From Hirudinaria manillensis (lineage: Eukaryota > Annelida > Clitellata > Hirudinida > Hirudinidae), in NCBI GenBank assembly GCA_034509925.1, contig CM067528.1, forward strand, positions 5,170,001 through 5,234,000: a stretch of 64,000 nt of DNA. Direction: 5' to 3'. Under the pieces are notes generated by a model. The model was not told where the DNA came from, made no database searches, and worked only from the letters and a program-made list of their open reading frames with translations. How positions within the stretch are numbered: the stretch's first letter is position 1; each line of letters begins with the position of its first letter. Of this stretch, positions 37,087 to 44,496 are shown one piece after another. Both the position numbers and the translations under genes were made by a program.

Positions 37087-39783
37087 ATGAAGGCCATGAA
37101 TTATGCCAAGTTTTTAAATCGAATCAGTTGCTCTAGGAAACCGTCAGCTATCAGAGTTTTGAGTAAGATTTATTTTCAAAATTAAATATCATGGAATGTA
37201 ACCGTCGTCGTGTGTTACGAAGCTGCAATCAAAGCACAGAGTGGACCTTCTATGATCTCACTGGCAGGTGGTAGTCCCAATCCACTCTTGTTTCCTTTCA
37301 AAGAAGCTTCATTCAATCTCAGGTGATTTAAATTTTTCAAATATATTATTTGTTTTAAAGTAAAGAAAGGAGAAGTAAAATTAAAATTATTCACAGAAAT
37401 GGGAAAAAGCTTGTCTTAAAAGAAGATGAAATTAACATTGCCTTGCAGTATGATGCTTCCCCAGGGCACGTCTTCATTTATCCAATTTATTTTTGTATTT
37501 TTTGTGACTAATGAGCTCTATTTGGCATTTTTATAGAAATGCAGGTCTTCTCAAAATGTTAAGAAAGTTGCAGAATCACTATCACTGTCCTCCACTATTT
37601 GAAGCTTCAGATGAGTCAAGGTCCACTGATATTTGTGTCACATATGGAGCCACAGATGGTGTTTCCAAGGTATTAGGTAGTAAAAGCAGTAATAATAAAG
37701 TACTGAAGATATTATTTTTTTTACTTGCAAGAGTTTTGAAATGTTGGTAAACCCTGGTGACACAGTTTTGGTGGAAGACCCTGCAAGTCCGGTTACATTG
37801 GCTGCAGTGAGATTTAATTTGGAATTTGTTCTTTAACTATTTAATTGCTTTTTGTGTTAACCTTACGACGTGTCAGGCCAGAAAGTAATTAATTCATGCA
37901 CGATGTTATTTTCAGCTACAACCGTTGGGATGCAAAATTGTTCCCATCGAGACAGATAAGGATGGCATGTTACCGGAATCCTTGTCGACGGCCTGCAAGG
38001 AATTTAGTTCGGAGGGAGTAAAATTTCTCCTCACGACCCCGAACGGGCAGATACCCACCGGTGCCTGCACATCCACCAACAGAAGAAAGGAAATATATCA
38101 GGTATTACAGCTTGTTGTGACAATTTTCATAGTAAGGGTAACGATTATTTGGATTATATTTTCATCTGAACAGATTGCCCATCAGTATGATTTCCTGATC
38201 CTGGAAAATGATCCATACTACATGCTCCAATATGAAGAGGTTGATGATGTTTTGATCAGATCCACCAATTTAACGGTCAAATTAAATTAAAATTGTTCTC
38301 TCGAAGTCCAAGAAACCGAGCTATTTGTCGCTCGACATCGACGGCAGAGTTTTGCGTTTCGATTCCTTCTCCTCGACTTTGTCCCCCGGGTGAGCAAAGA
38401 GAAGGTCTCGTGCATCGATGCCGTCGTCGTTATCGCCGCTGCATACTGACGTTGTTGTTATTGTTGTTATGTATATGTGTGTCGATGTTGTGGTTATTGC
38501 TATTTGATACTTGTGATGTTGGTAATTTTATTCAAATTATTTTATCTTATTTGAATTAATCCTTCTGCAATCGAGGTTGAGAGTTGGATTCGTAACTGGT
38601 CCGAAGGCTCTCGTAAAGAGGATTGTCCTCCATGTCATGGCATCGTCGATGCATGTCTCTACACTCTCTCAAGTAATTACTAACCGTTATTTCGTATTGC
38701 GTTCTATCTTATCTTATCTTCTTAATGATAACAAATTACATTAGCATGTTAAGTAATAATGAATATCTTTAGAATGCTGCCAAGACAGTTGCCTGCAGTT
38801 AATTTATTATTTTAAATTGGGCATAATTAATGATGCTTCTGAAAATAATATTAATTTTGATAACGATAACAAAGTTTACTATTATGCAGATTTTGGTTTA
38901 TGGATATCTGAATGAAGTGGGTTTGGATGGTTATGAAGAACATGTAAAGAGGTTAATAGTTTTATTGTTTATTATTTAAATTATAAATTAATTTAAATAT
39001 TTGTAAATTAAATTAAATATTTAGGTTTCACTGAGCCAGAAAAAACAATTTTTAATAACTTTTTAAAATATTGTCTGTTATTGATTTTAATAGGCCAATC
39101 CTCAATGATTGATCTCTTTCTTCATCTCTAATTTTTCTCTATCTTTCTAGGTATGAATTCATCCAGAGTTTAACATAAACTCTACTAATATATAGTAATT
39201 ACAAAGTATATAATTATTACCTTAGTACCTTAATGTATCTTAAATCAGCACAAAAATAATGTTCATTGTTTTAGTCTTTGTGAAGTTTACAAGTCTCAAA
39301 GAAACAATGTGCTTGAATCAGTTAAAAAGCACCTTAGTGGTTTGTAGTTTGAGTGTTTTGGCAAATTTAAAAAAAATAATTGCTTCATTGATTTATGAAA
39401 TTCTAGGTCTAGTAATGTGGAATGTTCCGAGTGCTGGAACCTCTCTGTGGTTGAAATTAAAAGAAAGCAAGTTTGCGAATGATATAGAGGAGTTTATTCA
39501 AAACAATGTTCGATATTTGTTTTCTTATTAATTTATGAAAGTGACAAAATGATTTCTCCCTCAGGAAGTGTTGTTGGCAGGAAACACATTTGCTTTGAAT
39601 TCAACAGAGTTTCAATGCAATATAATGGTACCCTTCACTAATCATTCAGCTCAAGATATAGATGAGGTCACTTTATGAGGTTACATTATCTTGTGTAATT
39701 TGATTAATTATCTTATATCTTTTCCACAGGAGTTACATAACTTGTCAGAACTACTGAGGAGGCTTCAAAATACAAATGCCTAG
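37087..39783 (+). CDS. Kynurenine/aminoadipate aminotransferase paralogue with its catalytic residues lost
   Basis: Fold-type I PLP enzyme relative (AADAT/KAT2 family). Exons: 37087-37162, 37223-37322, 37397-37465, 37537-37669, 37732-37806, 37916-38101, 38174-38239, 38307-38389, 38576-38672, 38890-38951, a doubtful 17-nt exon 39151-39167, 39407-39507, 39565-39666, 39730-39783; about 406 aa. Starts MKAMNYAKFLNRIS and keeps SMISLAGGSPNP. The catalytic lysine of DSFSK is Ser (TCG, 38373-38375, DSFSSTLSPG), the NPTG Asn is Ile (PNGQIPTG), the PAYSG Tyr is Ser (DPASPVTL), and the substrate-binding YLRASFS Arg is Met (NIMVPF). Intron 3 has a GC donor. The exon matching gene 2 exon 11 cannot be found intact. 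This is a pseudoenzyme or a young pseudogene; the otherwise open frames favour the former. Confidence 0.85.
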
Positions 39784-40837
39784 ATTTTGCAGGCATTCTG
39801 ATTCTTTTGTCAGAACTGTCTAAAATATTTATCACATTTCACATGTTGTATTAACATCATTACAATCAATAGGGAATTAAATGAATTTCTGGGTCATTAG
39901 GAAAACGTGTGAAATGGCTTTGTGGGAATATTCAGAAGGAACTGCACACAAATCAACATATTTAGAAGCTCGGTTCAATTGAACGATTATTTAAAAGCGT
40001 CTTAGTCAGGGTCGTAGTGCGTCGTTTCGGCCTCAGTTCGGTCACGTGGAGTTTCCGACGCCACACCTCCGAACCAATCCATCCGCCTCTGCGGGCACAT
40101 GTCGAATTAAAGCGTCAAAATAGCAGCTTCCGCTCGGGGTTGTAGCCTAATTAATTTCTTTTTAAACTCTAACTTGCTCATGATCGTCGATATTCCAATG
40201 GTGGGATCCTTTGCTTCGAGTAATTTAGGCATTAAGTGGTTATTAAACGTTCCATAAAACAAAAGTGTAATAAGCAATGGGTGTTCTGGTTGTGGTCGCT
40301 CAGTATCTGCGCCAAAGTCGGCTGCTGAGCAAGCGCTCTACAGACGACCGAGGTGGCCTTAGATCACAATTCTCGTCCCATCAAGGTGCACGATGCTCTA
40401 CAGAATCTTCATGTGGTTTTCCACATCTTTTAAATTGTTGTGGAATTCATCCATCTGCTCTTGGTCAACAATCCCATTATTTCTGTATAAGTGTTTTTGA
40501 ATTTTCTAATTAAATTACTAAATCCGTTCTTCTCAGAACCTATTCTCTGCACCATTTGGTACATGGATTTTTTTCTTCTTTCTCAATGAAGATTTCCAAT
40601 TTGTAGAGAAAAATTTATGAAAAGCTTTCAATTTATTTGTTTTTCTTTCTTTACTTTTATAAATGTAATATTTATTTTTGAGCGGATTACCTATGTAATT
40701 TTTAATATTCAACCAATTTTTAATCTGCACAGGTACACGCATATGCTTGTACCCTTCAAGATTTTTTTTATTATTGTTGATTGTGTTGATTTATTATTGT
40801 GTTGTTAGCAGTTTAGTAACTTTCATTCTGGTTGGAA
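39784..40837. other. Spacer between the tandem aminotransferase genes
   Basis: About 1.05 kb, no supported gene. It should hold the 3' end of copy 1 and the promoter of copy 2. Confidence 0.5.
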
Positions 40838-43800: not shown

Positions 43801-44496
43801 AATGTCGAGATTTTATGTGAGAATTGCGAGTTGGAGTAAAGATTAGCAAATGTCAGCTCAGAAACGCAAGTGAATGGTTGGCTGGACAATTTCAAGAAGC
43901 GCCACGACGTCATGTTCGATACAGTGCAGGGTGAAGCTAAAGCGATGGTCGCAAGTCTGGTACGATGAGAGCGTGCGATCAGCTAGGCAATGAGGTCTGC
44001 CAAAAGGAGATGCAGCAGCCAACAATTATGAGAGCTTTAGACTGAGCTGATGGGTGACTTGAGAAAATAAATCTTTAGTTGATAAAGTAAGGCCATTTTT
44101 ACATACCATCGTTACTATGTCACTTTTGCTTGGCTCCGATGGTTGGCATAGTAGTGAGACTTGACTGTATAAGAATCTCTAGAAACTTAAAATCAGGCAG
44201 AACAAAATGGGTGTTTTGACAAAGCCTGATGAAATTTGTTAGAAAAAACATTCTCAATTCCCCAGGTCCTCTTAGTACCAGGCTGTGCATTTTTCCATGA
44301 AGATACTCGCCCAACACCCTATGTCAGGGCTTCTTTCAGTCTGAGCTCAGAGGAGGAAATGGACAAGGTACCTTTATTTGACCATTTTTTGTAATGTAAT
44401 TTTGTCAACTGTGTTTCAGTAATAATGTTTCTGTTACAGGCATTCGAAAGGCTCCATGATCTGATAATTGAGGAAAATTTGAAGGGAGATTCATGA
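40838..44496 (+). CDS. AADAT: Kynurenine/alpha-aminoadipate aminotransferase (catalytic copy), 14 exons
   Basis: Transaminates kynurenine and 2-aminoadipate with 2-oxoglutarate, mitochondrial in vertebrates. Exons: 40838-40904, 41070-41148, 41470-41538, 41609-41729, 41833-41907, 41971-42162, 42226-42291, 42358-42440, 42501-42597, 42733-42794, 43006-43070, 43236-43342, 44266-44367, 44440-44496; 413 aa against 425 in human. The active-site set is complete: [40 protein letters not shown] (Lys codon 42424-42426) and YVRASFS. Exon 2, however, lacks the family motif SLAGGLPNP and reads [16 protein letters not shown] instead. Exons 3, 5, 7, 8, 9, 10 and 13 have exactly the lengths of copy 1, proving tandem duplication. 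A pogo-like MITE sits in intron 12. Confidence 0.88.
43553..44167. mobile_element. Pogo/Tigger-like MITE, 615 bp
   Basis: Terminal inverted repeats: left AAGTCAAGTCTCGCTACTAT, and the complement of the right end is CAGTCAAGTCTCACTACTAT, both continuing GCCA. Flanked by TA on each side (43551-43552 and 44168-44169). CAGT ends and TA duplication are typical of the pogo branch of Tc1/mariner. No transposase frame. It lies in intron 12 of the active aminotransferase gene. Confidence 0.8.

Follow-up and report, generated by a model that had tools for sequence, protein, structure and literature searches.

What keeps two adjacent genes for one aminotransferase in a genome when each has lost a different part of the active site? 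The question is posed by a stretch of 64,000 nucleotides from the leech Hirudinaria manillensis (assembly GCA_034509925.1, contig CM067528.1, positions 5,170,001 to 5,234,000; hereafter the window), in which two homologues of the aminotransferase AADAT/KAT II lie head to tail on the forward strand, copy 1 followed by copy 2. Copy 1 has lost the lysine that binds pyridoxal phosphate (PLP) together with six other cofactor- or substrate-contacting residues of its own pocket, and it keeps the N-terminal arm that in the human enzyme covers the pocket of the other subunit; copy 2 keeps the chemistry and has lost the arm. In light of this reciprocity, we propose that the two genes probably encode an enzyme and a pseudoenzyme that must pair, as in the known ‘prozymes’, to make up a single aminoadipate/kynurenine aminotransferase of two unlike subunits.

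Reciprocal losses in a tandem pair

Human KAT II is the top PDB match for both copies (E values of 5.5e-108 for copy 1 and 2.6e-126 for copy 2), with homology over nearly the full length, and both score above the cut-off for the class I/II aminotransferase domain (Pfam PF00155). Identity to human KAT II is 42.6% (175/411) for copy 1 and 48.9% (199/407) for copy 2, and the two copies are 41.3% identical to each other (167/404). The gene models are free of internal stops, intron phases agree at all 13 introns, exon length is equal in eight of the 14 exons (3, 5, 7, 8, 9, 10, 11 and 13), and the six remaining length differences are all multiples of three. Introns in both genes range from 57 to 923 bases, and intron 3 of copy 1 is the sole one in the two 14-exon models with GC-AG rather than GT-AG ends; at 37447-37537 an in-frame GT-AG alternative to it would drop six residues including Tyr74. 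Between the genes, a block at 40000-40430 is by eye richer in G+C, lacks an Rfam match and is possibly the promoter of copy 2; across 36000-46000 no non-coding RNA matched Rfam at gathering scores.

The original prediction had described two adjacent AADAT-like genes on a shared 14-exon plan, the first keeping SLAGGSPNP with Ser, Ile, Ser and Met for the PLP lysine, an Asn, the stacking Tyr and the carboxylate-binding Arg, the second keeping these four residues without SLAGG, and the gene models and alignments bear out each of these statements. The four replacements in copy 1 can be assigned to individual codons (K263S, N202I, Y142S and R399M), and are joined by D230N, Y195L, Q118T, S117A and F355S, with the phosphate-contacting Ser262 and Arg270 retained. 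Of the two residues Lys263 and Asp230, by which an AADAT/KAT II may be recognized, copy 1 has neither (Ser and Asn) and copy 2 has both. Hence copy 1 is a homologue of AADAT/KAT II that we predict to be no working member of the family. Copy 2 retains Lys263, Asn202, Tyr142, Arg399, Asp230 and Tyr195, and its SLAGG arm has been removed by a seven-residue deletion in exon 2 that leaves Ser35-Gly39 without counterparts, the exact position of the gap shifting by a residue or two between the three-sequence and the larger alignment. Its N-terminal region further carries S17P, I19W, R20T, P41N and Q73R; thus of Arg20 and Gly39, diagnostic of the swapped arm, copy 1 has both and copy 2 has a Thr and a deletion. 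In copy 2 the three exons concerned are open, their splice sites are GT-AG and the protein starts with MNYxKFL. An alternative exon that would restore SLAGG to copy 2, which the original prediction had named as fatal to its idea, was sought with a six-frame profile of the arm (residues 12-50), and none was found in the window: the only matches below an E value of 0.1 are the two arm exons of copy 1 (7e-10 and 0.014), the next standing at 0.51.

For a partner to supply the gate of a heterodimer, the gate has to act in trans. The original prediction had presumed such a shared site, and published accounts of KAT II place the arm over the other subunit's pocket. As described in part of PMC6400995, residues 16-39 of the human enzyme are swapped, and they shield and shape the cavity in which the other monomer binds its ligand. 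According to passages of PMC6629613, kynurenine in structure 2R2N is contacted by one subunit through Asn202 and Arg399 and by the other through Tyr74 and Leu40, with docked inhibitors adding Gly39, Gln73, Pro76 and Ser77 on the second subunit and Tyr142 on the first. The cofactor contacts given in a section of PMC4848902 are Gly116, Ser117, Gln118, Ser262, Arg270, Asn202, Tyr233, Asp230, Tyr142 and Pro232, and Tyr195 is named in an excerpt of PMC4926479. A gate lent in trans therefore fits the known geometry.

Accordingly worded for the leech, the model is as follows. Copy 2, with the cofactor cup, the PLP lysine and the Arg for the substrate carboxylate, would be the catalytic subunit. Copy 1 would be a folded pseudo-subunit, unable to bind PLP via lysine, from which the site of copy 2 would borrow the swapped arm (residues 16-41, Arg20 and Gly39 among them) and the loop with Gln73, Tyr74 and Ser77. 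The complete site would combine copy 2 chemistry with the copy 1 arm, and the dead site the copy 1 pocket with the degenerate arm of copy 2. Since a dead copy 1 homodimer has no use for a gate and a copy 2 homodimer would have none, together the two would make one complete site. Once pairing became obligatory, the dead site would be invisible to selection, and each gene would decay mainly in its dead-site residues. The stronger form of this proposal, that AADAT exists in the leech only as such an obligate heterodimer, the arm of the PLP-less subunit completing an arm-less catalytic one, with one live and one dead site and both genes eroded at residues of the latter, we rate slightly above an even chance. 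What the analysis shows is the pattern in the sequence, together with open frames and signs of constraint; that the leech genes are expressed and their products paired, with this activity and substrate, is what we infer.

Sorting of the losses by site

This model makes the distribution of losses among conserved positions informative. A scan of a prokaryotic genome collection with an alignment of human KAT II, copy 2 and copy 1 reported 517 relatives, of which 80 loci were kept; 78 of these entered an alignment together with the two copies and human KAT II, two being dropped for lack of a phmmer match at 1e-5 in the extracted open reading frames (ORFs). The same collection scanned with copy 2 alone gave no relative, and viral contigs gave none either. 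Positions were scored where the human residue occurs in at least 95% of the 78 homologues, and were classed as trans (residues 16-41, 73, 74, 76 and 77), cis (PLP and carboxylate contacts) or other (the rest). Copy 1 has lost none of the eight trans positions, seven of the ten cis positions and none of the 19 others; the corresponding losses in copy 2 are 7/8, 1/10 and 0/19. A paralogue without catalytic residues in which structural positions are kept is what a prozyme pair calls for, and copy 1 has this character (cis 7/10 lost, other 0/19).

When the positions are assembled into sites, the one made of the copy 2 pocket and the copy 1 arm has lost 1/18 and the opposite one 14/18 (Fisher 2.0e-5). 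The contrast persists if the three deleted residues are counted as one event (1.7e-4), if Gly116 and Pro232 are moved to cis (1/20 versus 14/20, p = 3.9e-5) and if Pro41 is left out (p = 5.9e-5). Such losses are rare among the prokaryotic homologues, the cis set being intact in 76 and the trans set in 74 of the 78; Arg20, Gly39 and Pro41, absent from copy 2, are conserved at 1.0 among them. The residues lost thus appear to be largely those of the second, dead site, and the loss of seven of eight trans positions predicts that copy 2 is impaired on its own. Identity to human KAT II over the arm (residues 16-47) versus the rest (80-424) is 59% versus 39% in copy 1, on average 43% versus 31% in the prokaryotes, and 12% versus 52% in copy 2: the usual excess of arm conservation is kept by copy 1 and gone from copy 2. 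Exons 4-14 of copy 1 taken alone show the same selectivity (cis 7/10 lost versus other 0/19, p = 7.7e-5; with Gly116 and Pro232 as cis, 7/12 versus 0/17, p = 5.1e-4), which indicates targeted loss and not even decay.

Comparison of the two copies gives further signs of constraint. Silent differences are saturated (proportion of silent differences, pS, 0.78; of non-silent ones, pN, 0.38), the copies differ at 64% of third and 33% of second codon positions, and blastn finds a match for four of the 14 pairs of homologous exons and for no pair of homologous introns. In neutral simulations from the copy 2 frame (residue 73 on), the share of runs that stayed free of stops was 2.25% at 100 mutations, 0.75% at 150 and nil (0/400) at 200, at 300 and at 400. 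With silent sites saturated, yet the frame and the structural invariants kept, copy 1 is no simple pseudogene. The plain pseudogene that the original prediction had held out as the alternative for copy 1 accordingly finds no match in a frame that is stop-free at silent saturation with 0/19 structural positions lost, and the usual signs of one (intron loss, stops, frameshifts, even decay) give way here to 14 exons, an open frame and targeted losses. We consider this pattern the mark of a fold apparently kept without its chemistry.

Table. Coordinates in the window of the two AADAT/KAT II-like genes and of their diagnostic residues
Feature	Positions	Strand	Remarks	Basis
Copy 1, AADAT/KAT II-like gene	37087..39783	+	14 exons, 422 aa; proposed non-catalytic partner	gene model
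Copy 1 exons	37087-37162, 37223-37322, 37397-37465, 37537-37669, 37732-37806, 37916-38101, 38174-38239, 38307-38389, 38576-38672, 38890-38951, 39275-39339, 39407-39507, 39565-39666, 39730-39783	+		gene model
Copy 1 arm residues Ser17, Ile19, Arg20	37144..37155	+	kept; exon 1	alignment
Copy 1 swapped-arm motif MISLAGGSPNP	37252..37284	+	exon 2; Ser35, Gly38, Gly39, Pro41 kept	strongest arm-profile match in window
Copy 1 Gln73, Tyr74, Ser77	37446..37460	+	kept; exon 3; act in trans in KAT II	alignment; part of PMC6629613
Copy 1 intron 3	37466..37536	+	non-canonical GC-AG	14-exon model
Copy 1 Y142S	37786..37788	+	ring-stacking Tyr lost; AGT	alignment
Copy 1 N202I	38051..38053	+	ATA	alignment
Copy 1 D230N	38207..38209	+	partner of PLP pyridine nitrogen lost	alignment
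Copy 1 K263S	38373..38375	+	PLP Schiff-base lysine lost; TCG	alignment
Copy 1 R399M	39625..39627	+	substrate carboxylate Arg lost; ATG	alignment
Copy 2, AADAT/KAT II-like gene	40838..44496	+	14 exons, 413 aa; proposed catalytic subunit	gene model
Copy 2 exons	40838-40904, 41070-41148, 41470-41538, 41609-41729, 41833-41907, 41971-42162, 42226-42291, 42358-42440, 42501-42597, 42733-42794, 43006-43070, 43236-43342, 44266-44367, 44440-44496	+		gene model
Copy 2 exon 2	41070..41148	+	21 nt shorter than that of copy 1; arm motif SLAGG.P absent	gene model, alignment, arm profile
Copy 2 Q73R, Tyr74	41519..41524	+	Tyr74 kept; exon 3	alignment
Copy 2 Asn202	42112..42114	+	kept	alignment
Copy 2 catalytic Lys263	42424..42426	+	kept	alignment
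Copy 2 Arg399	44326..44328	+	kept	alignment

The heterodimer weighed against other accounts

Several observations weigh against the heterodimer. The classes behind the counts were drawn from papers, with Ser260 as an addition, and were coded after the losses were known. All trans positions lie in exons 1-3 and all cis positions in exons 4-14, so that trans versus cis is confounded with N-terminal versus rest; at the 95% threshold the N-terminus of copy 2 holds no conserved control position, and its exons 1-3 have diverged overall (27, 19 and 30% identity to human). With the threshold lowered to 0.90, losses appear in the other class (3/25 in copy 1, 2/25 in copy 2), as they do at 0.85 (5/35 and 2/35). 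Gln118 is a residue of the live site too, and both copies have replaced it (Thr in copy 1, Met in copy 2); Leu293 (94% conserved) is altered in both, and copy 2 retains Tyr74 even though this residue would serve the dead site. The 14-exon model of copy 1 requires a GC donor at intron 3, for which the stretch tried offers nine in-frame GT-AG alternatives, five of them deleting Tyr74. Furthermore, a passage of PMC4848902 describes a human structure in the resting state whose arm is positioned away from the active site.

The rest of the genome was searched across 23 contigs (148.43 Mb). Copy 2, copy 1 and human KAT II as queries gave 17, 16 and 14 exon matches, all within these two genes, and thus no third AADAT-type locus, in a search made exon by exon with only the best candidates scored, a design that might overlook a third copy if it were very diverged. 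Other class I/II aminotransferases (nine exon-level matches) might also supply the reaction. A saccharopine-dehydrogenase (AASS-type) locus, acting upstream in lysine breakdown, is present on contig C1, and for this reason an aminoadipate transaminase activity is probably needed.

The first alternative is that the two genes met independent fates, copy 1 becoming a pseudoenzyme with an unrelated role, for instance in regulation or binding, and copy 2 a homodimer with a re-modelled entrance and a new substrate range, their complementarity being coincidental. The 0/19 structural losses of copy 1 and its retained Ser262 and Arg270 mean that some ligand could still bind, and copy 2 has the chemistry and Tyr74, with N-terminal exons that diverged as a whole. 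Coincidence, however, offers no account of why a dead subunit should keep eight of eight trans positions whose task in KAT II is to cover the site of the partner, nor does it sit well with the absence from copy 2 of Arg20, Gly39 and Pro41, invariant in the 78 homologues, and we regard this account as unlikely.

A second possibility is that read-through transcription splices exons 1-2 (or 1-3) of copy 1 to the later exons of copy 2, yielding the messenger for one canonical enzyme and leaving the other exons as leftovers. Matching intron phases would put any such join in frame, and identity to human indeed crosses at exons 3/4: in exons 1-3 copy 1 stands at 50, 53 and 43% against the lower values of copy 2 (27/19/30%), and copy 2 is the closer in ten of the 11 exons 4-14, exon 9 being the exception. 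Changes confined to a single copy follow the same division, at 4 in copy 1 versus 25 in copy 2 for residues 1-79 and 76 versus 31 for residues 80-424 (Fisher 4e-8). As leftovers, however, exons 4-14 of copy 1 should not be stop-free with 19/19 structural invariants kept and 7/10 active-site positions lost, a decidedly uneven decay, nor should exons 1-3 of copy 2 still be open with GT-AG sites and their MNYxKFL start; the join would also require a 4.1-kb intron, set against the 57-923 bases seen in these genes. We therefore hold such a chimera to be improbable.

Just as improbable in our judgement is plain decay, with copy 1 a dying pseudogene, copy 2 a degraded enzyme and no joint function. 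The GC donor of copy 1 intron 3 and the low identity to human of copy 1 exons 13 and 14 (24% and 17%) are in keeping with it, but neither a stop nor a frameshift has accompanied the saturated silent divergence, the exon-length differences all preserve the frame, neutral simulation yields stops, the losses at the 95% threshold are confined to the active site, and the reciprocity of the losses is left unexplained. That copy 1 pairs with copy 2 as a dominant-negative or stability partner, inhibiting, stabilizing or targeting it and lending no arm, would suit tandem same-strand genes and a protein with structural positions kept and pocket residues lost, but leaves the reciprocal arm loss of copy 2 unexplained and is the most doubtful of all.

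Surroundings, precedents and meaning

Elsewhere in the window, about 174 TCAC units run head to tail at 31821-32515 (99% matches) and about 140 ATT units at 48825-49249 (95% matches). On the minus strand, an ORF fragment with a copia-type gag domain (PF14223) lies at 50594-51088, and a long ORF without intron break, coding for a HECT ubiquitin-ligase domain, at 59691-62186, adjoining a SAP-domain ORF at 62554-63648. In the genome as a whole, six units of the telomere repeat TTAGG found no match. The mitochondrial contig C23 (15,581 bp) carries on one strand cox1, cox2, cox3, nad6, cob, nad1, nad3 and nad2, named by eye with a long stretch masked, and trnN, trnD, trnQ, trnI and trnK are predicted between the protein genes under the invertebrate mitochondrial code. 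Such a mitochondrial gene order is typical of annelids. A COX1-length match in the nuclear contig C9 (C9:3026446-3027786, locus L132) scores as the mitochondrial contig does (408.4 bits, nine TGA codons), so that either mitochondrial DNA was copied into the nucleus very recently or the match is an artefact of assembly. As outlined in part of PMC10671345, the 13 chromosomes of the published Hirudinaria manillensis assembly measure between 14.76 and 8.30 Mb and sum to 147.43 Mb, or 99.22% of the scaffolds; nine further scaffolds are small, and the mitochondrial genome has 15,581 bp.

Pairs in which a dead paralogue assists a live one are known. Human AADAT/KAT II (PDB 2QLR, 2R2N, 2XH1 and others) shares with the leech pair its family motifs and the division of residues between arm and pocket, but is a homodimer of identical, complete subunits, whereas each leech gene holds half a site. 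In trypanosomatids, AdoMetDC with its prozyme and deoxyhypusine synthase (DHSc/DHSp) each couple an impaired with a dead paralogue, becoming fully active only as hetero-oligomers, as set out in a portion of PMC3663545. The likeness lies in the duplication and in the predicted dead paralogue beside the catalytic one; those prozymes belong to other enzymes and organisms and involve no swapped-arm aminotransferase, and the explanation of their activation preferred by the authors, in the same portion, is cooperative structural change. In serine palmitoyltransferase, the LCB1 subunit lacks the PLP lysine but possesses other residues predicted to take part in catalysis, and a single active site per LCB1/LCB2 heterodimer has been hypothesized (PMC3794620, in part). 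That too is a PLP enzyme with one subunit devoid of the lysine, but it is membrane-bound, no aminotransferase and an old pair common to eukaryotes, whereas the leech genes are in tandem and their losses map to a swapped arm. Among the open-access literature matches listed, judged by titles and abstract openings, there was no split, heteromeric or prozyme-type AADAT/KAT, and the main text of a leech genome paper (PMC10087013) contains neither ‘aminotransferase’ nor ‘kynurenine’. Hirudinaria manillensis transcriptomes exist, RNA-seq being named in passages of PMC10671345 and in the abstract of PMC12109416, and chromosome-level genomes of two related leeches are at hand for comparison, according to part of PMC10087013.

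If the proposal is true, gene duplication would have split an aminotransferase into two complementary, obligatorily paired subunits. The prozyme idea could then be tested on a natural case in which the mechanism, arm swapping, and the residues are both specified, and the genome itself would document the share of each subunit in the active site. It also suggests a general search for hidden heterodimers among paralogue pairs whose losses sort by the contribution of each subunit to one site. For the leech, such an enzyme would bear on the breakdown of lysine and tryptophan, kynurenic acid included.

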